Assembly: GCA_027486415.1 (NCBI GenBank)
Contig: JAIXPC010000002.1
Location: 372,001-436,000, forward strand
Source: Sphingomonadales bacterium
GTDB taxonomy: Bacteria; Pseudomonadota; Alphaproteobacteria; Sphingomonadales; Sphingomonadaceae
Direction: 5' to 3'
DNA: 64,000 bases
Each line of letters starts with the position of its first letter. Position 1 is the first letter of the stretch. Shown in pieces: positions 1-35,340 of this stretch. The notes beneath the pieces are model-generated. The model worked only from the letters and a program-made list of their open reading frames with translations, did not search any database and had not been told where the DNA came from. The position numbers were made by a program, and so were the translations under genes.

Positions 1-333
1 GTCGAGGTTGAGGCCATAGAGCGTGTTGATGGTCGTGCGGTTGATCGGGATCGGCACCAGCATCCCATCCACCGATGCCAGCACGCGATGTTCATACGGC
101 CGCCATTCGGTGAACTGCGACAGGTAAGTGACGATGGCATCGCTGTTGGTGTGAAAGATGTGCGGGCCATATTGGTGGTAAAGGATGCCGTCGGCGCTGT
201 GCAGATCGTGCGCGTTTCCGGCGATATGGTCACGCTTGTCGACCACCAGCACCTTTTCGCCGCGCACCCGGGCCAGCCGTTCGGCCATGACGGCGCCGGC
301 AAAGCCGGCACCCACAACGATCCAGTCATGCAT
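1..333 (-). CDS. glf: UDP-galactopyranose mutase, N-terminal part
   Basis: This enzyme converts UDP-galactopyranose to UDP-galactofuranose, a precursor for surface polysaccharides, using reduced FAD. About 110 N-terminal residues are visible; the rest lies beyond the left edge. The start of the protein shows the Rossmann FAD motif (VGAGFAGAVMAERLA), followed by VVDKRDHIAGNA and a YGPHIFHT stretch typical of the family. I chose the ATG at 333 because a GTGGAG ribosome site lies 7 bases upstream; an ATG two codons earlier (339) would sit too close to it. The start overlaps the stop of the glycosyltransferase, so the two are probably translationally coupled. Identification is by family recognition. 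Confidence 0.93.
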   Translation of the reverse strand, partial: MHDWIVVGAGFAGAVMAERLARVRGEKVLVVDKRDHIAGNAHDLHSADGILYHQYGPHIFHTNSDAIVTYLSQFTEWRPYEHRVLASVDGMLVPIPINRTTINTLYGLNLD

Positions 334-1504
334 CGGCATACTCCACTTCGTTTTCCAGGATTTCGACGATGCGGCCGCGCATCGATGCCCACGTGCTGTC
401 CCACGACGATGTCGCCAGCTGGGCGGTGACGGCGCGGCGCCAGGCCGGGTTGGTGGCGTCGGCCATCGCAGTATCGATGGCGCGCGCAAATTCCTGTGCC
501 GTGGCCCCGATGCGAACCAGGCCGAGCGCAGCATAAGGATTGACGACGTCGCGCACCGGGGTCGAGACGACCGGCAGACCAGCGGCCAGGAATTCCGGCG
601 TCTTGGTCGGGCTGATGAAACGGGTGGCGTCGTTCAGCGCGAACGGCATGAAGCCGCAGTCCCAGTGATGGAGATAGGCCGGCAGTTCGGCATAGTCCCG
701 TCCGCCCAGCCAATGGATGTTGGGGCGCAGCGGGCGACTGGCCGGATCGATCTTCACCACCGGGCCGACCATCACGAATTGCAGATCGGGCCGCAGATCG
801 GCGAGCTGGCCCACCAGCGCCATGTCCATCCGCTCATCGATGACGCCAAAGAAGCCGACGCGTGGGTGACGGATGGCGGCAAGATCGCCTGGCTCGGCCT
901 TCGGCGCGGCGGGATCGCGGCGGAAATGCTCCACATCGATGCTGGATGGCACCGGGTGGATGTTGCTGTGCCGGTGGCGCTTGGCCTCGTACAGGCTGTG
1001 GCCGCCGGTGAAGACCACGTGCGCCCGCGCCATCAGTTCGGCTTCAAGCTGGACAATACGGCTGTCGGCCTGCGCGAACAGCGACAGCTCGTCCATGTTG
1101 TCATAAACGGTGACGGCGGCACCGAGGTGGCGGGAGAATTCCAGCGCCATCGGCGTGTAGTACCAGGCGACGGCCGGGACCTCGCCGGCGAGCAGACGGG
1201 TGAGCAGCCCGGCGAGCACGCCATTGCGCTTCACGGCAGGCAGATCCCGGGGCAGCAGCGGCGTCGCCACGGTCACGCCCTTGTCGATCCGCAGTTGCCA
1301 GCCCGGGTCGTCGCCAATGATCAGCTCGGGCTCTTCCACATAGATCACGCGGTAATCGCGGGCGGCGCGGGTGAGCAGGTGCTGCGGTCGCTGGAAGACA
1401 AAGTTCCAGCGCAGGTGCGACAGGCACACCAGGAGCGGGCGAGTCGGGGTGAGGGCGGCGCGGACAGACAGCGGCGCGCCGCCGGCAACGGCGTTGTTCT
1501 CCAT
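326..1504 (-). CDS. Glycosyltransferase (GT-B fold, GT4-like)
   Basis: A 392-residue cytoplasmic glycosyltransferase that probably transfers a sugar from a nucleotide donor during exopolysaccharide or lipopolysaccharide synthesis. An N-terminal acceptor domain begins near residue 25 (LSHLRWNFVFQRPQHLL). The C-terminal donor-binding domain contains FISPTKTPEFLAAGLPVVST, the usual nucleotide-sugar site with two spaced acidic or lysine residues. The frame is open further upstream, but the ATG at 1504 is preceded by a GAAGGTG ribosome site and gives a normal family length. It overlaps glf by a few bases, which suggests a galactofuranose-linked pathway. The exact acceptor and donor cannot be told from sequence. 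Confidence 0.85.
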   Translation of the reverse strand: MENNAVAGGAPLSVRAALTPTRPLLVCLSHLRWNFVFQRPQHLLTRAARDYRVIYVEEPELIIGDDPGWQLRIDKGVTVATPLLPRDLPAVKRNGVLAGLLTRLLAGEVPAVAWYYTPMALEFSRHLGAAVTVYDNMDELSLFAQADSRIVQLEAELMARAHVVFTGGHSLYEAKRHRHSNIHPVPSSIDVEHFRRDPAAPKAEPGDLAAIRHPRVGFFGVIDERMDMALVGQLADLRPDLQFVMVGPVVKIDPASRPLRPNIHWLGGRDYAELPAYLHHWDCGFMPFALNDATRFISPTKTPEFLAAGLPVVSTPVRDVVNPYAALGLVRIGATAQEFARAIDTAMADATNPAWRRAVTAQLATSSWDSTWASMRGRIVEILENEVEYADA

Positions 1505-1645
1505 GGTTTTCACCTTCAGCGGACGGTCTCGCAGACGTGCGTGACCATCCCGGACAATCGCTGAAGGCCGGCATTGTTCCCTGCCCTGCTGCCGCACCCC
1601 CGGCGCGCGCTGCCGCCAAGTGCCTGTTTGCAATCCACAACAAAG

Positions 1646-1672
1646 CGGGCCCGCAGGGTCACTGCGGGCCCG
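1646..1672 (-). terminator. Intrinsic terminator after the DUF2383 gene
   Basis: A perfect 11-bp GC-rich hairpin (CGGGCCCGCAG arms, 5-base loop) lies just past the stop of the 1694-2119 gene. On the minus strand it is followed by CTTTGTTGT, a modest T-rich tract. It separates the DUF2383 gene from the glycosyltransferase-glf operon downstream. Confidence 0.75.
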
Positions 1673-1693
1673 AAGGGCAACCGGGAACCGGCG

Positions 1694-2119
1694 TCAGAGC
1701 GTTGCGCGCATTTCGGCAAACACGCTCTGGTCGGCGCGCACCTCGTCGTGCAGATCTGCCACCATCTGACGTTCGCTGGCGTCAAGATCGCTGTCGTTCA
1801 GGGCATTTTCGATGGCCTCCAGAAAAGCGCTCTCGCCGCGCTCCACTTCGGCCAGCGCCGCCTTGGTGTCGTCCTGCACCAGCGACCTGAGGTTGAGGAA
1901 CAGCCGGTGCGCCGCGCCCGTCACCGTGCCTTCATCGCGGGCCCGCGACATGCCGGGCATCACCGTGGCGAATTCCTCGATCAGATTGGCGCGTTCATGG
2001 GCGCGGTTGGCAAAGAATTCCGCAATGTTGGGCGCGTCAGCGATTTCGGCGGCCTGCTGATAACCTTTCTGGCTGTCGACGAGCATCTGATAGATGGTTT
2101 CCAGATCACGCGAGGGCAT
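1694..2119 (-). CDS. PA2169-like four-helix-bundle protein (DUF2383)
   Basis: A 141-residue, all-helical, soluble protein without signal peptide. The pattern LETIYQMLVDSQKGYQQAAE at the N-terminus, the central FFANRAHERANLIEEF helix and a long acidic third helix match the DUF2383/PA2169 family of ferritin-like four-helix bundles. These are often induced in general stress or stationary phase; their biochemical role is not established. The residues that would bind metal in true ferritins are only partly present, so metal binding is unproven. It is a single-gene unit: a terminator follows, and a weak EcfG-like motif lies about 65 bases upstream. It sits beside a thioredoxin-reductase-like enzyme and a hemerythrin, which fits a stress island. 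Confidence 0.8.
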   Translation of the reverse strand: MPSRDLETIYQMLVDSQKGYQQAAEIADAPNIAEFFANRAHERANLIEEFATVMPGMSRARDEGTVTGAAHRLFLNLRSLVQDDTKAALAEVERGESAFLEAIENALNDSDLDASERQMVADLHDEVRADQSVFAEMRATL

Positions 2120-2182
2120 GGCTTGTCTCCTGTCGGCAAGGGTGGCGACGCCAACAGCATCCCTGCCGGCCGTCGGGGGCGA

Positions 2183-2208
2183 TAAGCGGCCAGCGGCCCG
2201 GATGTTCC
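2183..2208 (-). promoter_or_regulatory. Weak EcfG-like promoter candidate for the DUF2383 gene
   Basis: On the minus strand a GGAAC box (2208-2204) is followed after 16-17 bases by GCTTA, a poor match to the CGTT -10 box of the alphaproteobacterial general-stress sigma factor. The distance to the DUF2383 start is sensible. Only the -35 box is convincing. Confidence 0.25.
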
Positions 2209-2256
2209 ATCAGCGCGGCTGGTGCGGATCCGGCGCGGCGGGAAAGGTTCCGCCCT

Positions 2257-2859
2257 TCAGCCGAACGCGACTTCGTGGGCAGGTGTTTCCGCGGCGATGC
2301 CCACCGACGCGATGCGGACGCCGCCGCGCTCCAGTACGCTCGCCAGCATCGCCAGATGGGCCGCCGCGATGGCATCGGGCGGTGCGGCTTCGCCATGGCG
2401 CACGATGCCCAGTCCCATGCCGGTGGCAGCGGCGATGTCGGTCAGCACGGCCTCGGCCATCGCCTTGCTGCGCGCATGCACCTCGCCCCGTTCCACTGCC
2501 GTCGACAGCAGCAGGGTGCCGATCCGCGCACTGGCCGCAGCGTCCGCCAGATCGATGCTGACGGCAAGGTTGTTGCGGTAACAGCGGGCCGGGTGACGTG
2601 CCGCGTCGTGACCATCGTTGCTGGCGGCAGCGTGGATGATTGCCGCCACCTGCTCCCGCGCCAGCACCCGCCCGACGAGGGCGCGGTCACCAGCATTGCC
2701 ACGCACCAGCCGCGCGCCTGCCGGCACCAGTTTGCCATCAGATGACGAGAAATCATCCAGGATCACGACATCATGCCCGGCGCCGATCAGCGCTGCCGCG
2801 ATCCGGCTGCCCACCACGCCCGCACCGCCCGTCACCAGCACCGTGATCGGCCTTGTCAT
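2257..2859 (-). CDS. Short NAD-dependent epimerase/dehydratase-like protein
   Basis: A 200-residue protein related to the extended short-chain dehydrogenases such as UDP-glucose 4-epimerase. The N-terminal nucleotide-binding motif TGGAGVVGSRIA is intact, as is a DD dinucleotide-ribose contact (VVILDDFSS) and the GNAGD motif. It is only about 60 percent of the usual 320-340 residues: the C-terminal sugar-binding half is missing. The catalytic YxxxK appears as HARSK, so the tyrosine is replaced by histidine. The start has a GGGAGGG ribosome site. The gene follows the thioredoxin-reductase-like gene by 16 bases and is likely cotranscribed with it. It may be a degenerate enzyme or a nucleotide-sensing protein; catalysis is doubtful. 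Confidence 0.7.
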   Translation of the reverse strand: MTRPITVLVTGGAGVVGSRIAAALIGAGHDVVILDDFSSSDGKLVPAGARLVRGNAGDRALVGRVLAREQVAAIIHAAASNDGHDAARHPARCYRNNLAVSIDLADAAASARIGTLLLSTAVERGEVHARSKAMAEAVLTDIAAATGMGLGIVRHGEAAPPDAIAAAHLAMLASVLERGGVRIASVGIAAETPAHEVAFG

Positions 2860-2875
2860 CGCCACCCTCCCGCTC

Positions 2876-3805
2876 TCAGCCAATATCGGCCGGCATGACC
2901 TGGCCATCGCGTTCGCGCAGCCAGTTGTGCGCGCGGGTGGCGGCAATCGCGCCATGGCCCATCGCCACGCTGATCTGGTCCAGCCCCTCCACGATGTCGC
3001 CGGCACCAAACAGCCCGTCGACACCGGCACCGAACATCGCGTCGGCCGGCAACTTGCCCTTCTCTCCCAGCCCCACCCCCAGATCGCGAGCCAGCGCGCT
3101 GCGCGGCTGCGTCACCTCCACCGGGTACAGCACGTCGAACCACAAGGGCGCATCGTCGCCGATCCTGACGCCAATGCCCTGAGTGCCCGGCTCCAGCGCC
3201 AGCAAGCTGCCGTGCACCAGCGCCACGCCCCGCTCCAGCAACGCCGCGGCCTCGGCCGCCGGTACTGGCCCGTCGCCGATCGAAACCAGGGTCACGTCGT
3301 TTGAGAAGGTCCGCAGGAACAGCGCCTCTCCGGCGGCGTCTGCCAGCGCGCCAATCACGGCAATGCGTTTGCCGCGATGCTCATACCCGTCGCAGATCGG
3401 GCAGTATCGCAGCGTGCCAGCGGTGATCGCGGCGCGCAGCACATCGGGGGCGAGATCCATCGGATCGGTCGCCAGGCCGGTGGCCAGCACCAGCGTTCGC
3501 CCCCGAAACTCGCCACCGTTGTCTGCCGCCAGCACGAAATCGTCCCCATCTCGCGCCGCCGCCACGATATGCGCCTTCGTCAGCCTTGCCCCATAGCGCC
3601 CGGCATGGGCACGCATCTGGTCGATCAGGTCGGGCCCGGCGATACCGGCGGCAAAGCCCGGCACATTGTGGCTGCGCGGGATTGCCAGCGCGCGGGACCG
3701 GCCGTCGTCGATCACCAGGGTGTCCCGGCAATAGCGCGCCAGGTACAGCGCCGCGCTCAATCCCGCCGGACCACCGCCCACCACGATCGCATCGTGCCTG
3801 TGCAT
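2876..3805 (-). CDS. Thioredoxin-reductase-like FAD/NAD(P) oxidoreductase
   Basis: A 309-residue cytoplasmic flavoprotein of the class II pyridine nucleotide-disulfide oxidoreductases. The FAD motif VGGGPAGLSAAL lies at residues 9-20, a redox-active CPIC at 135-138 (the CxxC of thioredoxin reductases is usually CATC), and the C-terminal FAD contact GAGDIVEG around 270. The NADP motif region is IAVIGALADAAGEA, lacking the usual GxGxxA spacing, so cofactor preference is uncertain. It probably reduces a thioredoxin-like partner or another disulfide. It is transcribed from a good EcfG-type promoter about 60 bases upstream, implying induction in general stress, and heads a two-gene unit with the short epimerase. 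Confidence 0.85.
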   Translation of the reverse strand: MHRHDAIVVGGGPAGLSAALYLARYCRDTLVIDDGRSRALAIPRSHNVPGFAAGIAGPDLIDQMRAHAGRYGARLTKAHIVAAARDGDDFVLAADNGGEFRGRTLVLATGLATDPMDLAPDVLRAAITAGTLRYCPICDGYEHRGKRIAVIGALADAAGEALFLRTFSNDVTLVSIGDGPVPAAEAAALLERGVALVHGSLLALEPGTQGIGVRIGDDAPLWFDVLYPVEVTQPRSALARDLGVGLGEKGKLPADAMFGAGVDGLFGAGDIVEGLDQISVAMGHGAIAATRAHNWLRERDGQVMPADIG

Positions 3806-3862
3806 CTCAGATGGTTGCTGTGCGCCATGCGGTCATCGCGGCCTCCTCGCCCAACGACCGCC

Positions 3863-3887
3863 AACGCGTAACAGGCCGTTTCGTTCC
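3863..3887 (-). promoter_or_regulatory. EcfG-type general-stress promoter (thioredoxin-reductase-like gene)
   Basis: On the minus strand GGAAC (3887-3883), a 16-base spacer and CGTT (3866-3863) match the consensus for the alphaproteobacterial general-stress sigma factor EcfG exactly. The predicted start point lies about 50 bases before the ATG at 3805. It is placed back to back with a weaker motif for the hemerythrin gene. Confidence 0.7.
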
Positions 3888-3899
3888 CGCTGCGGCTGC

Positions 3900-3925
3900 G
3901 GAAACATATCCGCGCCATCGCGGTT
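3900..3925 (+). promoter_or_regulatory. EcfG-like promoter candidate (hemerythrin gene)
   Basis: GGAAA (3900-3904), a 17-base spacer and GGTT (3922-3925) match the EcfG consensus at four of five and three of four positions. It is about 35 bases from the hemerythrin ATG. The pairing with the perfect divergent motif makes it more believable than the boxes alone. Confidence 0.45.
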
Positions 3926-3960
3926 AGGGCTGGGCCACATTGCTGCGAAAGGAACCGACC

Positions 3961-4398
3961 ATGGCCGCCAAGGAAGACGCGATCTCGATGCTGAAGGACG
4001 ATCACCGCGAGGTGGAAGAGCTGTTCAAGCGCTTCGAAGCGGCCACCACCAGCCGACAACAGCAGTCCATCGCCACCGAGATCTGCGCCGCGCTGCTCCT
4101 CCATGCCGAGATCGAGGAGGAGATTTTCTATCCCGCCGTCCGCAACGCCATCGACGAGACCGAACTGGTGGACGAAGCCGAAGTCGAGCATCAAAGCGCC
4201 AAGCAGCTCATCGCCCAGATCGAAAGCGGCGATCTTTCGACCGACATGTTCCGTGCCAGCGTGATGGTGCTGATGGAATATGTGCAGCATCACATCGAGG
4301 AAGAGGAAAAGGAGATGTTTCCCAAGGTGAAGAAGGCCAAGCTGGACCTTGCGGCACTGGGGGAAAGCATGAAGGCGGCCAAGTCCGAGCGCGTCTGA
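3961..4398 (+). CDS. Hemerythrin domain-containing protein
   Basis: A 145-residue single-domain HHE hemerythrin, cytoplasmic, expected to bind a di-iron centre and sense or scavenge oxygen, nitric oxide or peroxide. The iron-ligand histidines and carboxylates are visible in order: DDHREVEE, LLHAEIEEEIFYP, EVEHQSAK and QHHIEEEEKEMFP. A longer frame begins at 3940, but the ATG at 3961 starts where family members start and follows GAAAGGAACC, a suitable ribosome site. It diverges from the thioredoxin-reductase-like gene with EcfG-type promoter motifs between them, so a role in oxidative or nitrosative stress is inferred. Confidence 0.9.
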   Translation: MAAKEDAISMLKDDHREVEELFKRFEAATTSRQQQSIATEICAALLLHAEIEEEIFYPAVRNAIDETELVDEAEVEHQSAKQLIAQIESGDLSTDMFRASVMVLMEYVQHHIEEEEKEMFPKVKKAKLDLAALGESMKAAKSERV

Positions 4399-4467
4399 CG
4401 CGCAGCCTTTGGGGGGGCGGGTCTTTGACCCTCGACCTTGGCCCGCCGCCCCCTTACAACAGCGGGC

Positions 4468-5424
4468 ATGCACAGCCACGCCCACTCGCACCCGCTGGGC
4501 GGCCATGATCATCATGGCCACGGCCATGCCCACGCGCCGCCGAATTTCGGCCGCGCCTTTGCCGTGGGTGTGGGGCTCAATCTCACCTATGTCGCGATCG
4601 AGGCTGGTGCCGGCCTGTGGTTCGATTCGATGGCGCTGCTGGCCGACGCCGGCCACAACCTGTCCGACGTTGCCGGCCTGCTGATCGCCTGGGGCGCCCT
4701 GGCTCTGGCCCGTCGGGCACCATCGCCGCGCTTCACCTGGGGCCTGTCGCGCTCTCCGATCCTCGCCGCACTGGCCAATGCCCTGATCCTTGTCGCGGCC
4801 TGTGGCGGCATCGCGTTCGAATCGATCCACCGCCTCACCGACCCGCTGCCGGTATCAGGGAATGTGGTGATGGCGGTTGCCGGTGTCGGCATCCTGATCA
4901 ACCTGGGCACGGCGCTGATGTTCATGCGCGGGCGCAAGGGCGATGTGAATGTGCGCGGCGCCTATCTGCACATGATGGCCGATGCGGCCGTTTCGGCCGG
5001 GGTGGTCATTGGCGGGCTCGTCATCGGCATCACCGGCTGGACATTGATCGATCCGCTGCTGGGCCTTGCCGTCGCGGCCCTGGTGCTGCGCGGCACATGG
5101 GGCCTGTTGACCGAATCGCTGGCATTGGCGCTGGATGCCGTACCCGCCGGGATCGAGCCGGATGCCGTGTCGGGCTGGCTTGGCAATCTCGATGGCGTCG
5201 CGGCTGTCCACGATCTCCACATCTGGCCGCAGGGCACGACCGGCGCGATCCTGACGGCGCATCTGGTGATGCCCGCCGGCCATCCGGGCGACGAGGCGCT
5301 GGCCAATATTGCCCACGCCCTGCACCACAAGTTCAACATCAACCACGCGACATTGCAGGTGGAAACGGGTGCTGATCACTGCCGGCAGGCCCTACCGGAA
5401 GCCGCGCATCATCATCACCACTGA
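4468..5424 (+). CDS. Cation diffusion facilitator family zinc/cation efflux protein
   Basis: A 318-residue inner-membrane antiporter that exports Zn2+ or similar divalent cations in exchange for protons (CzcD/ZitB branch). The first 25 residues are histidine-rich and the last five are all histidine, which suggests metal-sensing or buffering tails. Six transmembrane segments can be traced. The transport site is shown by LLADAGHNLSDV (HxxxD, near residue 60) and its partner HMMADAAVSAGVV in helix V. A cytoplasmic C-terminal domain with HDLHIWPQG follows. I chose the ATG at 4468 because it places the histidine tail at the start as in relatives. It stands alone, 47 bases before mmsA. Confidence 0.9.
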   Translation: MHSHAHSHPLGGHDHHGHGHAHAPPNFGRAFAVGVGLNLTYVAIEAGAGLWFDSMALLADAGHNLSDVAGLLIAWGALALARRAPSPRFTWGLSRSPILAALANALILVAACGGIAFESIHRLTDPLPVSGNVVMAVAGVGILINLGTALMFMRGRKGDVNVRGAYLHMMADAAVSAGVVIGGLVIGITGWTLIDPLLGLAVAALVLRGTWGLLTESLALALDAVPAGIEPDAVSGWLGNLDGVAAVHDLHIWPQGTTGAILTAHLVMPAGHPGDEALANIAHALHHKFNINHATLQVETGADHCRQALPEAAHHHHH

Positions 5425-5471
5425 TGCTTCTACGGGTGGTCACGCCCGGCCCGGCCCGATAAAAGGCCGCC

Positions 5472-6971
5472 ATGCGCATCATCGATCATCACATCGCTGG
5501 CCAGGCCGTCGCCGCCGGCACCCGCAGCAGCCCGGTTTTTGATCCCAATTCGGGTCAGGTCCAGGCCGAAGTCCGCCTGGCCGGCGCCGATCTGCTGGAG
5601 CAGGCCGTCGCCGCCGCCCGCGCCGCACAGCCGGGCTGGGCCGCCACCAATCCGCAGCGCCGCGCCCGTGTCATGTTCAAGTTCAAGGAACTGGTCGAAG
5701 CCAATATCGACGAACTCGCCCGTGTGCTGTCGTCGGAACATGGCAAGGTGCTGGCCGATTCCAAGGGAGACATTCAGCGCGGGCTGGAGGTGATCGAATT
5801 CTGCTGCGGCATCCCGCACGTGATGAAGGGCGAATATACCCACGGCGCCGGCCCGGGCATTGACATCTATGCCCACCGCCAGCCCATCGGCATCGGCGCC
5901 GGTATCACGCCGTTCAACTTCCCGGCGATGATCCCGATGTGGATGGCTGGCGTCGCCATCGCCACCGGCAACGCCTTTATCCTGAAACCGTCCGAACGCG
6001 ATCCCACCCTGCCGCACATGCTGGGCGATCTGTTCAAGCAGGCGGGCCTGCCCGATGGCATCTTCAGCGTGGTGAACGGCGACAAGGAGATGGTGGACGC
6101 CATCATCCAGCACCCCGACATCGCCGCGATCAGCTTCGTCGGATCGTCTGACGTGGCGGAATATATCCATGCCGAAGGCTGCAAGCGCGGCAAGCGCGTG
6201 CAGGCGATGGGCGGCGCCAAGAACCACGCCGTGGTGATGCCGGATGCCGATCTCGATCAGGTGGTGCGCGATCTGGCCGGTGCCGCCTTCGGTTCGGCCG
6301 GCGAACGCTGCATGGCGCTGCCGGTGGTGGTGCCCGTGGGTGAGGCCACTGCCGAGGCCCTGCGCGCCAAACTGCTCCCCGCCATCGCGGCGCTGCGCAT
6401 CGGCACGTCGACCGATCCCGACGCCGATTACGGCCCGGTCGTCACCGCCGCCCACAAGGCGCGGATCGAAAGCTACATCCAGATGGGTGTGGACGAAGGT
6501 GCGGAGCTGGTCGTTGATGGCCGCGGCTTCACCCTGCAGGGCCACGAAAACGGCTTCTTCATCGGCCCCAGCCTGTTTGATCACGTGCAGCCGCACATGC
6601 AGTCCTATCGCGACGAGATCTTCGGCCCCGTCCTCCAGATCGTGCGCGCCCCCGATTTCGAAAGCGCGCTGGCCCTGCCCAGCCAGCACCAATATGGCAA
6701 CGGCGTCGCCATCTTCACGCGGAACGGCCACGCCGCCCGCGAATTCGCGGCGCGGGTGAATGTCGGCATGGTCGGCATCAACGTGCCGATCCCGGTGCCG
6801 GTCGCCTATCACAGCTTTGGCGGCTGGAAGCGTTCGGCCTTTGGCGACATCGGCCAGCACGGCATGGAAGGCGTGCAGTTCTGGACCAAGCGCAAGACGG
6901 TCACGGGCCGCTGGCCCGATGGCGGCGTTGGCGATACCGGCAGCGCCTTTGTCATTCCCACGATGGGTTGA
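5472..6971 (+). CDS. mmsA: Methylmalonate-semialdehyde dehydrogenase (CoA-acylating)
   Basis: Converts methylmalonate semialdehyde, from valine or thymine breakdown, to propionyl-CoA with NAD and CoA. The 499-residue length is normal for MmsA. The catalytic cysteine is C280 in [12 protein letters not shown], a context specific to the CoA-acylating branch; [13 protein letters not shown] and KPSERDP are the family's cofactor-binding segments. It begins the valine catabolic group, with enoyl-CoA hydratase directly after (8 bases) and mmsB further on. Identification is by strong family recognition. Confidence 0.95.
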
Positions 6972-6979
6972 GGGGACCA

Positions 6980-7753
6980 ATGGCTTACGAAACCATCCTC
7001 GTCGAACAGCATGACGCCGTCACGCTGGTGCGCCTCAACCGCCCGCAGGCGCTGAACGCGCTGAACAGCCAGGTGCTGGCCGATCTTATCGCCGCGTTCG
7101 AAGCCTATGACGGCGATCCGTCGCAGCGCTGCCTGGTCATCACCGGCAGCGAAAAGGCCTTTGCGGCCGGCGCTGACATCAAGGAGATGAGCGGCCAGAG
7201 CTTCGCCCAGATGTATGGCGGCAATTTCTTCGCCGGCTATGACCGGGTGACGGCGACGCGCAAGCCTTGGATCGCGGCGGTCAGCGGCTTCGCGCTCGGC
7301 GGCGGCTGCGAACTCGCCATGATGGCCGACATCATCATTGCCGCGGAGAACGCCAAGTTCGGCCAGCCCGAAATCAAGTTGGGCGTCACCCCCGGAATGG
7401 GCGGATCGCAGCGGCTGGGGCGCGCCATCGGCAAGGCCAAGGCGATGGAAATGTGCCTGACCGGGCGCATGATGGACGCCGCCGAGGCCGAGCGGTCGGG
7501 CCTGGTCGCCCGTGTCGTCCCCACTGAAACCTTGCTTGATGAAGCCGTGAAACTCGCCGCCACCATCGCCGGCATGGCACCGCTGGCCAGCATCGCCGTG
7601 AAGGAGGAGATCGACGCCACCTTCGAGATGAGCCTGAAGGAAGGCGTGCGTTTCGAGCGCCGGCTGTTCCACGGCCTGTTCGGCAGTGCCGACCAGAAGG
7701 AAGGCATGGCGGCCTTCGTCGAGAAGCGGCCCGGCAACTGGACGGGCGAATAA
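6980..7753 (+). CDS. Enoyl-CoA hydratase
   Basis: A 257-residue crotonase that adds water to a trans-2-enoyl-CoA. In this cluster it most likely hydrates methacrylyl-CoA in valine degradation, although a general fatty-acid role is possible. The oxyanion-hole motifs are clear: [11 protein letters not shown] near residue 60 and [17 protein letters not shown] near 105. The catalytic glutamates fall in GGGCELAM and in the [13 protein letters not shown] stretch. The frame is open from a TTG at 6968, but the ATG at 6980 has a GAGGGGACC ribosome site. It is transcribed with mmsA and meets the inverted unknown gene tail to tail with no gap. Confidence 0.92.
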
Positions 7754-8266
7754 TCAGGCTTTCAAGGCGCGCTTCACGGCGTCGGCATAGGCCGCGATCA
7801 CCTGCTCCAGCACCGCCGGGCGGCCTTTCGGCCCGGCAATCAGGCTGCTGTGGACATAGTCGCGCAGCCGCTCGTGCAGCCAGGCGGTGCGACCCAACGG
7901 CAGCATCGCCATCATCGCCTCGCCCAGATCAAACACCCTGCCCTTGCCGGCCAGCGCATAATCATCGCCGCGCACCCGCACCGCCTCCACATCGGCGAGC
8001 AGCGCCAGCTCCTCGTTGGCGGCCTCCAGCAATTGCGCCGCCAGCGGCTCCGCGGCGGAGCGTAGCAGCGTCTTCACCCGGTCGGACAGGAAATCGCGCT
8101 GGCCAAACATCAGGTTTCCGGTGCCCAGCCGGCTCGCTTCCGCCTCGGCGTGGGCAACCAGATCGGCGGCCAGATCGCGAAACGCGCGCTCCGCCGTCTC
8201 GCTGTGGCGCTGGCGCCAGGCGCGCAGATCACCGCCGATCATGAACCTGTTGATGATCGTCCGCAC
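7754..8266 (-). CDS. Unknown helical protein within the valine cluster
   Basis: A 170-residue protein I do not recognise. It has no signal peptide or transmembrane segment and is rich in alanine, arginine and leucine with alternating charges, which predicts a mostly helical soluble fold. I chose a GTG at 8266 because AAGGA lies 7 bases upstream; an internal ATG at 8242 is an alternative. It is inverted between the enoyl-CoA hydratase and mmsB. Its stop abuts the hydratase stop with no intergenic base, and its promoter must share the 114-bp divergent region with mmsB. The position suggests a local or coregulated role, but nothing in the sequence proves a link to valine metabolism. Confidence 0.6.
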   Translation of the reverse strand: MRTIINRFMIGGDLRAWRQRHSETAERAFRDLAADLVAHAEAEASRLGTGNLMFGQRDFLSDRVKTLLRSAAEPLAAQLLEAANEELALLADVEAVRVRGDDYALAGKGRVFDLGEAMMAMLPLGRTAWLHERLRDYVHSSLIAGPKGRPAVLEQVIAAYADAVKRALKA

Positions 8267-8380
8267 GCGTGATTCCTTGGGCAAAACGCAAGGCTGATTT
8301 GGCAATCGAAACCGTGCATGGCAAGGCGAACCCACAGCCAGCCCCACATTCAGCCCCACATCCCGCAAGGAACGAAGATC

Positions 8381-9259
8381 ATGGCCAGCATCGCATTCAT
8401 CGGCGTCGGCAACATGGGCGGCGGCATGGCCTTGAACCTGGCCAAGGCCGGCCACGACGTTCGCGCCTTCGATCTTTCGGCCGATGCGCTGGCGCGGGTG
8501 GCGGCGGGCGGCTGCACGGTCGCCACTTCTGCCATTGAAGCCGCGACGGGCGCCGATGCCATCGTTACCATGCTCCCCGCCGGCAGCCATGTCCGCGCCG
8601 CCTATGAAGGCGGGCTGTTCGATGCGGCGGGCCCCGATGCCATCCTGATCGATTGTTCCACCATCGATGTCGCCACGGCAAAATCGCTGGGTGAGGCTGC
8701 CGCCGCGCGCGGGCTGGCGATGGTCGATGCGCCGGTGTCGGGCGGGACCGCGGCGGCCGATGGCGGCACGCTCACCTTCATGGTCGGCGGGCCGGCAGAC
8801 GCCTTTGAACGCGCCCGGCCGATCCTTGAAAAGATGGGCAAGGCCGTCATCCACGCCGGCGGCGCCGGGATGGGACAGGCGGCCAAGATCTGCAACAACA
8901 TGATCCTGGGCGCCACCATGATCGCCACCGCCGAAGCCTTCGTGCTCGCCGAGAAACTGGGGTTGGACGCGCAGACCTTCTTCGATATCAGCAGCAAGGC
9001 CAGCGGGCAATCGTGGTCGATGACCAGCTATTGCCCGGTCCCCGGCCCGGTGCCCACCTCGCCGGCCAACCGCGATTACCAGGGCGGCTTTGCTGCCGCG
9101 CTGATGCTGAAGGACCTGAAGCTGGCCATGGCCGCCGCCCAAGGGGCCGGGGCCAGCGTACCGATGGGGGCCGATGCCGCCAGCCTCTATCAGCTGATGG
9201 TCAACAATGGCGGCGGCAACAGCGACTTTTCGGCGATCATCAGGCTGCTCAGGGGCTGA
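8381..9259 (+). CDS. mmsB: 3-hydroxyisobutyrate dehydrogenase
   Basis: Oxidises 3-hydroxyisobutyrate to methylmalonate semialdehyde with NAD, the step before MmsA in valine breakdown. The 292-residue protein has the N-terminal dinucleotide motif [15 protein letters not shown], the substrate motif [16 protein letters not shown] near residue 120, and the catalytic-lysine motif [12 protein letters not shown] near residue 170. A longer frame exists upstream, but the ATG at 8381 has AAGGAACG before it and starts exactly at the Rossmann strand. Together with mmsA and the hydratase it gives a nearly complete distal valine pathway. Confidence 0.94.
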
Positions 9260-31124: not shown

Positions 31125-31667
31125 TCAGCGCGCCTTTGCCGCGGCTTGCGCCCGCGCGGCATCGGCCGCCTGCAGCACTGCCCACGCCGCCTGCACGGCG
31201 CGAAACCGCTCGGCGGCTTCCGGCCCCGGCCCGGCCACATCGGGGTGGCTGGCCTTGGCGGCGGCGCGCCACGCGGCCTTGATCTCGTCGGCACTGGCGC
31301 TGGCATCAACACCCAGCACGCGCAACGCATCATGTTCGGCGCGGCTGCGGCTGCCGTCGCCCTCGCCGCCCCATTGCCAGTGCGAGGCGCGGCTGTACTG
31401 GCGCTGGCGGTCTTCGGCGGCGGCGCGCGCGGCGGCTTCTTCCGGCGTCAGGCCGCGGAAATAATCCCAGCCGGCGTTGTATTCGGCGGCGTGCTGCTGA
31501 CAGAACATCCAGCGTTCCGGGCTGTTGGGCGCTTTCGGGGCGGGGCGGTCACCGATGTTGCTGCAACCATCGCGATCGCACAGGCGCACGGTGGCAGCGG
31601 CGCGTTCGGCACCATAATCCCGCCAGCGCGGGAACCCCCAGTCATCGTTGCGCCGCTGCTTTGGCAC
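31125..31667 (-). CDS. J-domain protein with cysteine cluster
   Basis: A 180-residue co-chaperone that should stimulate a DnaK-type Hsp70. The J domain is C-terminal (about 112-175) with the essential HPD at 141-143 (AKASHPDVAG). The N-terminal half holds a possible zinc-binding cluster, CDRDGC at 30-35 and FCQQH at 55-59, so it is a type III-like J protein with an added metal site. No ATG is available; I chose the GTG at 31667 because GAGGAG lies 6 bases before it. It diverges from the MFS transporter gene over 115 bases. Confidence 0.82.
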   Translation of the reverse strand: MPKQRRNDDWGFPRWRDYGAERAAATVRLCDRDGCSNIGDRPAPKAPNSPERWMFCQQHAAEYNAGWDYFRGLTPEEAAARAAAEDRQRQYSRASHWQWGGEGDGSRSRAEHDALRVLGVDASASADEIKAAWRAAAKASHPDVAGPGPEAAERFRAVQAAWAVLQAADAARAQAAAKAR

Positions 31668-31782
31668 CGTGAACTCCTCAAACCCCCACTCTATGCCATC
31701 GCGCGCGGCCTTGCGAGTCCGCCCGGCCCGGATGGCGCTTCGGCTGGACGAATGCCGCGCAAACGGGCAGACCGTCTGCCAG

Positions 31783-33027
31783 ATGCTTGCCCTGTTGGCC
31801 ACGCGGCGCTTTGGCCCCCTGTTCGCCACCCAGTTCCTGGGCGCGTTCAACGACAATCTGTTTCGCACGGCGCTGGTGTTTCTGGTCGCCTATGATGTCG
31901 CTGCCGCTGATCCGAAACAGGCGGCGTTGCTGGCTTCGGCGGCGGCCGGCCTGTTCATCCTGCCGTTCCTGCTGTTTTCCGGCATTGCCGGTTCGGCCGC
32001 CGACGCGCGCGACAAGGCCGCCATCGCGCAAGTGGTGAAGATCGCCGAAATCGCCATCATGGCACTGGGTTGGGCGGCCTTTGCCATCGGATCGCTGCCG
32101 CTGGCGCTGTTCGTCGTGTTCCTGATGGGTTGCCATTCCACCCTGTTCGGCCCGGTCAAATATGCCATCCTGCCCCAGCACTTGCGCGAAGGCGAATTGC
32201 TGGCCGGCACCGGGCTGGTGGAAGGCGCCACCTTCGTCGCCATCCTGCTGGGCCAGGTGGCCGGCGGGCTGTTTGCCACCCAGGCTGTCGGCCCGGTGGC
32301 GCTGGCCATTGCCGCGCTGGGCTGGCTGGCGTCGCGGTTCATCCCGCCGGCCCCGCCCGAACCCGGCCGCCGCATCGATTGGAACCCGTTCTCCAGTGGT
32401 AAGGCGGCGCTGGGCCATGCCTTTGCCAATCGCCATCTGCTGGTGGCGACGCTGGCGATCTCGTGGTTCTGGGCGCTGGGCGCGGTCTACACCAGCCAGT
32501 TCGTGCCGCTGGCCAGGAACGACATGGGCGGCACCGAAGCGGTGGCGACCCTGTTCCTCGTTGCCTTTTCCATCGGCATCGCGGCGGGTTCGGTGGCGGT
32601 GGGGCGCTGGCTGAAAGGCCGGATCAGCACGCGGCTGTGTGCGCCGGCCGGGATCGCCATGGCGCTGGCCGGCATCGATCTGTGGTTTGCGATTCGCGGC
32701 GTCGGCGCGGTGCCAAAGGATGTCGCGGCCTTTTTCGCTGCGCCCGCCGGCTGGCGCGTGCTGGCCGATCTCACCCTGCTGGCACTGGCCGGCGGCGTGT
32801 TCTCGGTGCCGCTCTATGCCGTGCTGCAAACCGCTGGCGAAGCCGGCACGCGGGCCAGCGCGATTGCTGCCAACAACATCATCAACAGCCTGTTCCAGGT
32901 GGCCGCCGTGCTGGGGGCGGGCGCTGCCGTGGGCGCCGGGCTGGGCGTGCCGCTGGTGCTGATGATCGCCGGGATTACCGTGCTGCCGCTGTTGCCGGCG
33001 CTGAGGGCGGGCCGGCAGCCGGCATAG
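31783..33027 (+). CDS. MFS transporter, LplT-like lysophospholipid flippase branch
   Basis: A 414-residue inner-membrane protein with about 12 transmembrane helices. The start RRFGPLFATQFLGAFNDNLFRTALVF is typical of the LplT/Aas-associated MFS branch that moves lysophospholipids. In many bacteria the same domain is fused to, or next to, a 2-acyl-glycerophosphoethanolamine acyltransferase and acyl-ACP ligase; here it stands alone and no such gene is nearby. I chose the ATG at 31783. The 3' end overlaps the end of the convergent diheme-cytochrome gene by 53 bases. Substrate is inferred from family only. Confidence 0.82.
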   Translation: MLALLATRRFGPLFATQFLGAFNDNLFRTALVFLVAYDVAAADPKQAALLASAAAGLFILPFLLFSGIAGSAADARDKAAIAQVVKIAEIAIMALGWAAFAIGSLPLALFVVFLMGCHSTLFGPVKYAILPQHLREGELLAGTGLVEGATFVAILLGQVAGGLFATQAVGPVALAIAALGWLASRFIPPAPPEPGRRIDWNPFSSGKAALGHAFANRHLLVATLAISWFWALGAVYTSQFVPLARNDMGGTEAVATLFLVAFSIGIAAGSVAVGRWLKGRISTRLCAPAGIAMALAGIDLWFAIRGVGAVPKDVAAFFAAPAGWRVLADLTLLALAGGVFSVPLYAVLQTAGEAGTRASAIAANNIINSLFQVAAVLGAGAAVGAGLGVPLVLMIAGITVLPLLPALRAGRQPA

Positions 33028-34012
33028 AAGCGATCCACTGGCGGATCAGCGCCACGCCTTCCTCGTGGATCAGCGCCCGGCCGAACTGCGGCATCATCAC
33101 GCCGGGTTCGGATGACAACATGCGGTGCAGCAGGATGGAACGATCAGGCTGGCCGGGCAGGATCGAGAATTCATGCCCGCCCGAACCGCGCCCCGCCGCC
33201 ACCGGGCGCTTGTTCACGCCCAGATGCGCGGGCTCGCGCTCGTCGGGCGTCAGGTACAGTCCGGAATTGGACGCAAAGCCGCCGCGGCTGTGGCAGTGGC
33301 CGCAGTTCACCGCCAGATAGGCGCGGGCGCGGGATGCCACTGGCTCCGCCGTGTCGTCCCAGCGGGCCAGGCGCGGCAGGCCGGCCGCCGGCAATCCCGC
33401 CAGCCGGCCGCTGGCCTGCCATTGCAGCAATTGCCGGCCATCGTTCAGATTTCCCGCTGTCGGGCCCAGCGGCGTGATCGCCTCGCCATGCTGGTGGCAG
33501 GTCTTGCACTGGTTCTGGTTGGGCACCGTGTATTCAATGGCCTGCGCGCGGCCCTTCGCATCGGTGAAGGCCACCGGCACCTTGGCCCCGGCGCGCTTGA
33601 GCACCGCGCCGCCGGGCTGTTCGACATAACTCAGCGCGGCCCAGCCAGCCGGTCGGTGGATCAGCAGGCGGGTTTCGACCTGGCGGACATTCTGGCCGGG
33701 CCGGCGTTGATCGGCCGCAAAGGCAAATTTCTTGACGAGCACGGTGCCCACCGGGAAGGCCAGCGCGCCATCGGCGCGATACTGGGCCTTGGCGCCCGCC
33801 GGCATCCACACGAAACGCGCCTTTTCCGATCCATCCGAAAACAGCGGCGTGTTCAGCGTATAGGGCGTCACCCCCGGTGCCGGCGCGCCGCTGGCATCGA
33901 ACAGGCCGTAATCGGCAAGGCGCGGCGCGTCCGCCGTCATCAGCAGGTCGGCCTGAACGACAGGCGCCGGCGCCGCGCCCAGCAGCAACAGCGCCGCCAG
34001 CGCCCGCCTCAT
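32975..34012 (-). CDS. Exported diheme c-type cytochrome (HNE_0200 / SO2930 family)
   Basis: A 345-residue periplasmic protein with an N-terminal signal peptide (LAALLLLGAAPAPVVQA). Two haem-binding motifs are present, CKTCH at 169-173 and CGHCH at 237-241, and a possible distal Met in PGVMMPQFG near 310. YTLNTPLFSDGSEKARFVWMP and CHQHGEAITPLGPTAGNLN fit a small family (TIGR03806) that occurs in two-gene pairs with a parallel beta-helix protein (TIGR03805). The function of the pair is not known; electron transfer to or from a sugar or surface oxidation is one idea. It overlaps its partner by ATGA. Confidence 0.85.
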   Translation of the reverse strand: MRRALAALLLLGAAPAPVVQADLLMTADAPRLADYGLFDASGAPAPGVTPYTLNTPLFSDGSEKARFVWMPAGAKAQYRADGALAFPVGTVLVKKFAFAADQRRPGQNVRQVETRLLIHRPAGWAALSYVEQPGGAVLKRAGAKVPVAFTDAKGRAQAIEYTVPNQNQCKTCHQHGEAITPLGPTAGNLNDGRQLLQWQASGRLAGLPAAGLPRLARWDDTAEPVASRARAYLAVNCGHCHSRGGFASNSGLYLTPDEREPAHLGVNKRPVAAGRGSGGHEFSILPGQPDRSILLHRMLSSEPGVMMPQFGRALIHEEGVALIRQWIASMPAAGPPSAPATAAAR

Positions 34013-35220
34013 CGCGCCCGCGCCTCCAGCGCTGCCGGCAGCACGATGTCCTTGCGCGTGCTCACCACAAGGCTGGTGGGCAGCGGCGCGGGCCTGGCCT
34101 GCGTCGGCGGCGTGCCCTGCACGCCCAGGTTCAGCGTCACGCCCGGCGCATCACTGGATATCCCGCCATCGGCGGCCATCTCGCCGCCGCCCGGCACGGC
34201 AAAGCGCGTCACCCCGTCCCACATCACCGGTGGCAGCGGGCCGCCCAGAGCGGCGGCGATCTCCCTGCCGCCGGGGAAGGCGGGGGCCTTGCCGTTGTCC
34301 ATGAAATGATTGCCATAAACCGACACGCCGCGCGGCAGCGGGTTGTAGGCGGCATCGGTGAATTTCTGGGTATAGGCGACAATCATCACCGCCGCGCCCT
34401 TGTTGGCCATGACGTGATTGCCGGTCACGATCACGTTCCTGTTGGCCATCACCATGATGCCGGTGCCCGATGGCACGCTGGCGACGATATTGCCGGGCGC
34501 GGCAAAGTTCACATGGTTGTTGCCCACCACCTGGTTGTTCGCCAGTCGCACGTTGCGCCCGCCCTGCTGCGGCAGATCGGGCAGATCGAACACCAGGATG
34601 CCGCCGGCGTTGTTGGTGGCGGTGTTGTTCACCACATCGGCATCGTAACTGTTCTCGATCTCGATCCCGGCCACGTTCATTTCGGCGCGGCTGTTCCGCA
34701 CGATGATGGTCTGCGACTGGCCAACATAGATGCCGGCGTCCGATGCGCCCTTCACCAGCGCCCGGTCGATCAGCACGTTCTTCGAACTCACCGGATACAG
34801 GCCATAGGCGCCGTTGGTCGATTTCGGCCCGCCGGTCCATTCCACCCGCAGGTTGACCAGCGCGATGCCGTCGCTGCCCTTGGACTTGATGCCGTTGCCT
34901 GCCGCGTTCTCCACGGCCAGATCGCGCACCACCACATTGTCCGACGTGACCAGCACACCTTCGCCCGCCACCTTCTGCGCGGTGAAATCCAGGATGGTCT
35001 TGTCCGGCCCGTCGCCCTTCACCGTGACGCCATCGACATCCAGCGACAGCCCGTCGGCCAGCGCGTAACGCCCGGCAGCGATGTGCACCGTATCCCCCGG
35101 CTGCGCCTCGATCAGCGCCGTCTGCAATTTTTCCTGCGCGTCGCCGCCAGGGCCGACATGGATCGTCTTCGCCCCGGCTGGCACTGCCAGCGCCACCATC
35201 GTCAACAGCCATGCGCGCAT
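34009..35220 (-). CDS. Exported parallel beta-helix protein (partner of the diheme cytochrome)
   Basis: A 403-residue protein with a signal peptide (LLTMVALAVPAGA), placing it in the periplasm or outside. From about residue 30 to 330 it consists of right-handed beta-helix turns (IHVGPGGDAQEKLQTALIEA; NGIKSKGSDGIALVNL; AGIEIENSYDADVVNNTATN; GIMVMANRNVIVTGNHV), a fold typical of pectate lyases and C5-epimerases. The catalytic residues of known lyases are not obvious. It matches the TIGR03805 family, which is found with TIGR03806 proteins. It is the first gene of the pair. Confidence 0.85.
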   Translation of the reverse strand: MRAWLLTMVALAVPAGAKTIHVGPGGDAQEKLQTALIEAQPGDTVHIAAGRYALADGLSLDVDGVTVKGDGPDKTILDFTAQKVAGEGVLVTSDNVVVRDLAVENAAGNGIKSKGSDGIALVNLRVEWTGGPKSTNGAYGLYPVSSKNVLIDRALVKGASDAGIYVGQSQTIIVRNSRAEMNVAGIEIENSYDADVVNNTATNNAGGILVFDLPDLPQQGGRNVRLANNQVVGNNHVNFAAPGNIVASVPSGTGIMVMANRNVIVTGNHVMANKGAAVMIVAYTQKFTDAAYNPLPRGVSVYGNHFMDNGKAPAFPGGREIAAALGGPLPPVMWDGVTRFAVPGGGEMAADGGISSDAPGVTLNLGVQGTPPTQARPAPLPTSLVVSTRKDIVLPAALEARAR

Positions 35221-35340
35221 GCGTTCATCCTCTCCCCGATGGCGCGAGTGTCGAACAGAGCGCCCGCCCGCTCAACCCCCATATTCACCGGTTAATGCGC
35301 GTTCATCGCCTTCGCGCCGCCAGTTTGTTACCCATTGTCC

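Follow-up and report, generated by a model that had tools for sequence, protein, structure and literature searches.

Results

Organization of the locus

The window, i.e. the whole stretch of 64,000 nucleotides of a Sphingomonadales genome that was analysed, contains at 32975-35220 a stand-alone operon of two genes, the first of which encodes a beta-helix protein (P0002) and the second a diheme c-type cytochrome (P0001) (Table 1). The stop codon of P0002 and the start codon of P0001 share an ATGA, by which the two genes are probably translationally coupled. P0002 matches TIGR03805 with 405.3 bits, above the curated cut-off of 141.5, and P0001 matches TIGR03806 with 351.8 bits (E 3e-105), above the curated cut-off of 313.3. 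Both proteins are predicted to be exported, judging by signal peptides read by eye, and the two CXXCH motifs of the cytochrome, CKTCH and CGHCH, would each bind a haem. The position and overlap of the genes, both family assignments, the export and the haem binding had all been proposed in an initial annotation of this DNA, with which our results agree. The pair occurs as a single copy in the genome, which also encodes CcmF for haem attachment.

The operon is flanked by a convergent MFS gene and a divergent ABC exporter gene. The MFS gene (31648-33027), located on the opposite strand, shares 53 bases with the 3' end of the cytochrome gene, and resembles only the transporter part of the acyl-ACP phospholipid O-acyltransferase (PRK06814).

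Table 1. Features of the locus and their positions in the window
Feature	Position	Strand	Basis
Beta-helix protein P0002, 403 aa, first gene of the pair	34009..35220	-	TIGR03805 405 bits; PF13229 E 1e-18
Signal peptide of P0002, ~residues 1-17		-	read by eye
Right-handed beta-helix domain, residues 32-337	34210..35127	-	profile match
Conserved acidic/aromatic stretch: D161, Y165, E187, E189 (N190 just after)	34654..34740	-	conservation in both beta-helix branches
Diheme c-type cytochrome P0001, 345 aa, second gene of the pair	32975..34012	-	TIGR03806 352 bits
Signal peptide of P0001, ~residues 1-21		-	read by eye
ATGA, overlap of P0002 stop and P0001 start codons	34009..34012	-	sequence
Putative P460/c'-beta-like domain, residues 29-178, first CXXCH at its end	33479..33928	-	sequence profiles; fold weak
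Lys94 codon	33731..33733	-	alignment with M. capsulatus P460 Lys78; 131/131
First haem motif CKTCH, residues 169-173	33494..33508	-	sequence
C-terminal cytochrome c domain, residues 225-330	33023..33340	-	sequence; weak Pfam Cytochrome_CBB3 match
Second haem motif CGHCH, residues 237-241	33290..33304	-	sequence
Met307 codon, likely axial ligand of haem 2	33092..33094	-	invariant 131/131
Short divergent intergenic region toward the ABC exporter gene	35221..35334	.	gene map

Pairing of the two families across genomes

That the two families recur as a pair, as the initial annotation also held, is evident in every sample. All 12 genomes with TIGR03806 above its cut-off among 289 sampled from the class, and all 37 such genomes among 399 sampled from the Proteobacteria, also encode a strong TIGR03805 match, and conversely each TIGR03805 match above ~289 bits in the 399 genomes shares its genome with TIGR03806, all of these being counts that ignore phylogeny. 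Furthermore, at 77 of 80 named loci from Alphaproteobacteria, SAR86, Bacteroidota, Planctomycetota and other groups, the beta-helix gene is adjacent to the cytochrome gene, upstream and on the same strand; at the remaining three it is located elsewhere in the same genome. In some gammaproteobacteria the two proteins are fused into a single polypeptide of 880-1019 aa. The pairing is near-obligatory and occurs far beyond chance, and the near-constant adjacency together with the gene fusions is strong evidence that the two proteins form a complex. Neighbour clustering of the loci revealed no third conserved gene beside the pair, and a search there for co-occurring transport or sugar genes, to which the initial annotation had pointed, likewise found none conserved.

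The pair itself is previously known, and the pairing already figures in the TIGRFAM family descriptions. The window pair is like the known one (SO2930 family diheme cytochrome and parallel beta-helix) in its full-length matches, gene order and adjacency, and we found no difference between them. Two variations in setting were observed among the loci. In a Flavobacterium (locus L053, ~1-8951) an aspartyl-protease-like gene splits the pair, and the upstream ORFs resemble, by eye, planctomycete-type cytochrome and DUF1501 genes; at three loci (L007, L008 and L009) the pair is retained in AT-rich, streamlined alphaproteobacterial genomes of 1.4 Mb.

Haem motifs and ligands of the cytochrome

Lys94, C169, C172, H173, C237, C240, H241 and M307 are invariant in all 131 complete TIGR03806 members, and Lys94 is present even in fusion proteins in which the neighbouring residues have changed; E113 and R115 are absent from a few divergent relatives in the same alignment. 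No other His or Met that might cap haem 1 is conserved at residues 25-230 of the 131 complete members. Since Lys94, both CXXCH motifs and Met307 are invariant and haem 1 has no conserved His or Met cap, haem 1 is probably reactive or ligand-binding, and haem 2, with its His/Met pair, is probably an electron carrier.

Probable relationship of the N-terminal domain to cytochrome P460

Pfam Cytochrome_P460 was matched by 26 of 56 N-terminal domains of the family (best E 2e-4) and the next family by 5 of 56; the window protein itself scores 15.5-17.9 bits against PF16694, below the gathering score of 27. When the profile of the N-terminal domain was aligned by HHalign with P460 sequences from the genomes of the class, the probability was 72% with narrow sampling, and 94%, with a score of 48.0, with a broad sampling that added divergent members and McP460. 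In comparison, 200 column-shuffled controls in which the CXXCH tail was kept had a mean score of 25.5 (sd 1.1, maximum 30.4) and a probability of at most 46%. The second cytochrome domain reached 10% and the reversed P460 body 16%; the P460 body without its CXXCH tail still gave 67%. A rotated P460 alignment also scored high; as rotation leaves the homologous segments together, the rotated controls were dropped as a null. The profile signal is largely local, resting on the segments FPxGxxxVK and CXXCH. When solved structures were searched with the profile of the N-terminal domain, P460 was not found. In Foldseek searches with two AF2 models (pLDDT 81 and 92.5), P460/c'-beta chains ranked top by probability, up to 0.77, but none of these matches was significant (E at least 0.08, TM 0.3-0.44), so that the fold comparison is at most supportive.

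In the P460 alignment, Lys94 falls on Lys78 of M. capsulatus P460, which is the lysine bonded to the porphyrin (PMC6427953). The cross-link position is occupied by Phe or Met in cytochrome c'-beta, and P460s with a lysine and a carboxylate oxidise NH2OH (PMC11928373). At the position of the distal carboxylate (the equivalent of Glu96/Asp102) the alignment has a gap, with E113 and R115 nearby in a likely strand. The family thus compared is like cytochrome P460 (PF16694; McP460, NeP460) in its CXXCH-ended domain, its FPxGxxxVK segment and its lysine at the cross-link position, but differs from it in that it has additional segments and a second, fused cytochrome domain, is partnered by a beta-helix and offers no sure distal carboxylate, with the window protein scoring under the Pfam cut-off. 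Cytochrome c'-beta would belong to the same superfamily as the N-terminal domain, and its chains also stand high in the Foldseek lists; unlike c'-beta, however, the TIGR03806 family always has Lys at the cross-link position.

From these comparisons, the N-terminal domain of TIGR03806 very probably belongs, as a distant relative, to the cytochrome P460/c'-beta superfamily. A reactive haem 1 is likely, and a cross-link between Lys94 and the haem is a tentative proposal; the lysine may be cross-linked, an axial ligand or structural.

The beta-helix protein and its sister branch

A group of divergent beta-helices lacks TIGR03806, carries its own C-terminal cytochrome c domain and is encoded beside a CCP/MauG di-haem gene in 8 of 8 loci (L169, L170 and L185-L190). 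As in the window, a related beta-helix with the same core residues stands there beside a di-haem enzyme and an electron-transfer cytochrome c domain; the haem enzyme, however, is unrelated, and the cytochrome c domain is fused to the beta-helix. Y139, D161, Y165, E187, E189 and N190 are common to both branches whatever the haem partner, so the conserved face probably serves something that both systems share rather than one haem partner.

The initial annotation described the helix as carbohydrate-binding-like. Its fold is that of a right-handed beta-helix, and phage pre-neck appendages are the only chains of solved structure that its profile matches. Catalytic beta-helix lyases use Lys, Arg or His, and the beta-helix positions that are conserved at 97% or more include none of these; a role as polysaccharide lyase is therefore unsupported. 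NosD is likewise a periplasmic beta-helix partner of a redox enzyme, but the window protein scores only 37.2 bits against TIGR04247 (range 37-44), far below the NCBIfam cut-off of 300, which led us to abandon the idea of a NosD-like role as copper chaperone.

Distant relatives and the Shewanella proteins

Some distant TIGR03806-like modules follow GSDH-type (PQQ-type) sugar-dehydrogenase propellers in one large protein (L164-L167), which in L166 and L167 contains further CXXCH motifs; ThuA/F5-8C domains also occur in distant relatives. The GSDH fusions are far from the subfamily of the window. In Shewanella oneidensis, SO_2930 and SO_2931 have been listed as outer-membrane or extracellular c-type cytochromes, the latter as a diheme lipoprotein (PMC4837345, PMC5357785). 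At two loci (L159 and L160) a fusion of beta-helix and TIGR03806 is followed by a second TIGR03806 gene, an arrangement that is the one expected of SO_2931-SO_2930, with which we infer these loci to be identical. An Mtr-like extracellular electron conduit was considered and dropped, as the cytochrome has two haems only and no porin gene is conserved beside the pair.

Discussion

We consider it likely that the pair forms an exported two-protein haem enzyme, in which a P460-like reactive haem is wired to a His/Met haem and docked on a beta-helix. Haem 1 would be held by the CXXCH at the end of the N-terminal domain, with His173 as its only conserved axial ligand, its distal side open or reactive, and the invariant Lys94 at the site of the lysine that P460s bond to the porphyrin. 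The second haem, in the class I-like C-terminal domain with Met307, would carry electrons between haem 1 and a periplasmic cytochrome/oxidase chain. The beta-helix would be a stable partner that probably presents or binds the substrate, perhaps a surface glycan, through its conserved acidic/aromatic face. The genes with their domains and motifs, the near-constant pairing and the fusions, the P460 kinship at the profile level and the constancy of Lys94 are results of the comparisons above; what we infer is that haem 1 is catalytic or binds ligands, that Lys94 touches it or is bonded to it, which way the electrons flow and what the beta-helix does.

A different reading is that of a plain electron-transfer diheme protein, in which both haems are low spin and the pair relays electrons to an acceptor from a donor at the surface or in the periplasm; the P460-like fold would then be mere ancestry, and Lys94 structural or the sixth ligand. 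Met307 does mark haem 2 as an electron carrier, the Shewanella protein SO_2931 is counted among the outer-membrane cytochromes, and the dehydrogenase propellers to which related modules are fused need an electron acceptor. However, haem 1 has no conserved sixth ligand, save possibly a lysine, and that lysine is kept as strictly as the cysteines of the haem motifs and coincides with the cross-link site of P460, so that we regard this reading as unlikely. The electron outlet at the surface suggested in the initial annotation is weakened because haem 1, in a P460-like domain, is without a conserved His or Met as sixth ligand; as far as sequence comparison goes, the P460-like domain points to a redox enzyme at the surface and not just to a conductor of electrons.

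The same annotation had offered an oxidative step on a glycan; in such a system a polysaccharide would be bound or cleaved by the beta-helix, and its electrons would pass to the cytochrome. The oxidation has become more likely through the P460-like domain, and a glycan is a plausible substrate by analogy: the beta-helix fold, the acidic and aromatic residues conserved across the branches, and the GSDH fusions and ThuA/F5-8C domains are all consistent with it. Nevertheless, neither a sugar nor a transport neighbour is conserved at the loci, the most conserved beta-helix residues include no Lys, Arg or His, and the GSDH fusions are distant from the window's subfamily, which leaves the glycan-oxidising system in this form rather improbable. 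Less probable still, as a special case of the two-protein haem enzyme favoured here, is true P460 chemistry, i.e. the oxidation or detoxification of hydroxylamine or NO in aerobic heterotrophs. The invariant Lys at the cross-link site, the conserved polar E113 and R115 in the likely distal strand and the hydroxylamine oxidation by known P460s with a lysine and a carboxylate (PMC11928373) speak for it, but nitrogen genes are not conserved beside the pair, the position of the carboxylate is uncertain, and the beta-helix is left unexplained.

Taken with the GSDH fusions, the sister branch suggests a modular redox machine that is exported and built on a scaffold presenting the substrate. Within the limits of what could be checked, the P460-like domain of haem 1, the constancy of Lys94 and the sister branch with its CCP/MauG enzyme are new: the P460-like N-terminal domain is absent from the family names, Pfam assignments and literature checked, and the literature searched yielded neither a functional study of the pair nor a link between the family and P460. 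It is conceivable, though we hold it with some reserve, that TIGR03806 represents a large branch of the P460 superfamily that has gone unrecognised in aerobic heterotrophs. Its Lys-cross-linked haem would be wired to another haem, with the beta-helix as docking partner, and the whole would make up a new class of surface redox enzyme, to which the CCP/MauG system would be a parallel built on the same scaffold. To our knowledge, the lysine-cross-linked P460 haem has been characterised in few proteins, mostly from nitrifiers and methanotrophs. If our proposal is true, this cofactor would be widespread in Alphaproteobacteria, SAR86, Bacteroidota and other groups, as part of a wired diheme enzyme whose partner is fixed, and two uncharacterised families, together with the poorly understood Shewanella cytochromes SO_2930 and SO_2931, would become a directly testable enzyme system.
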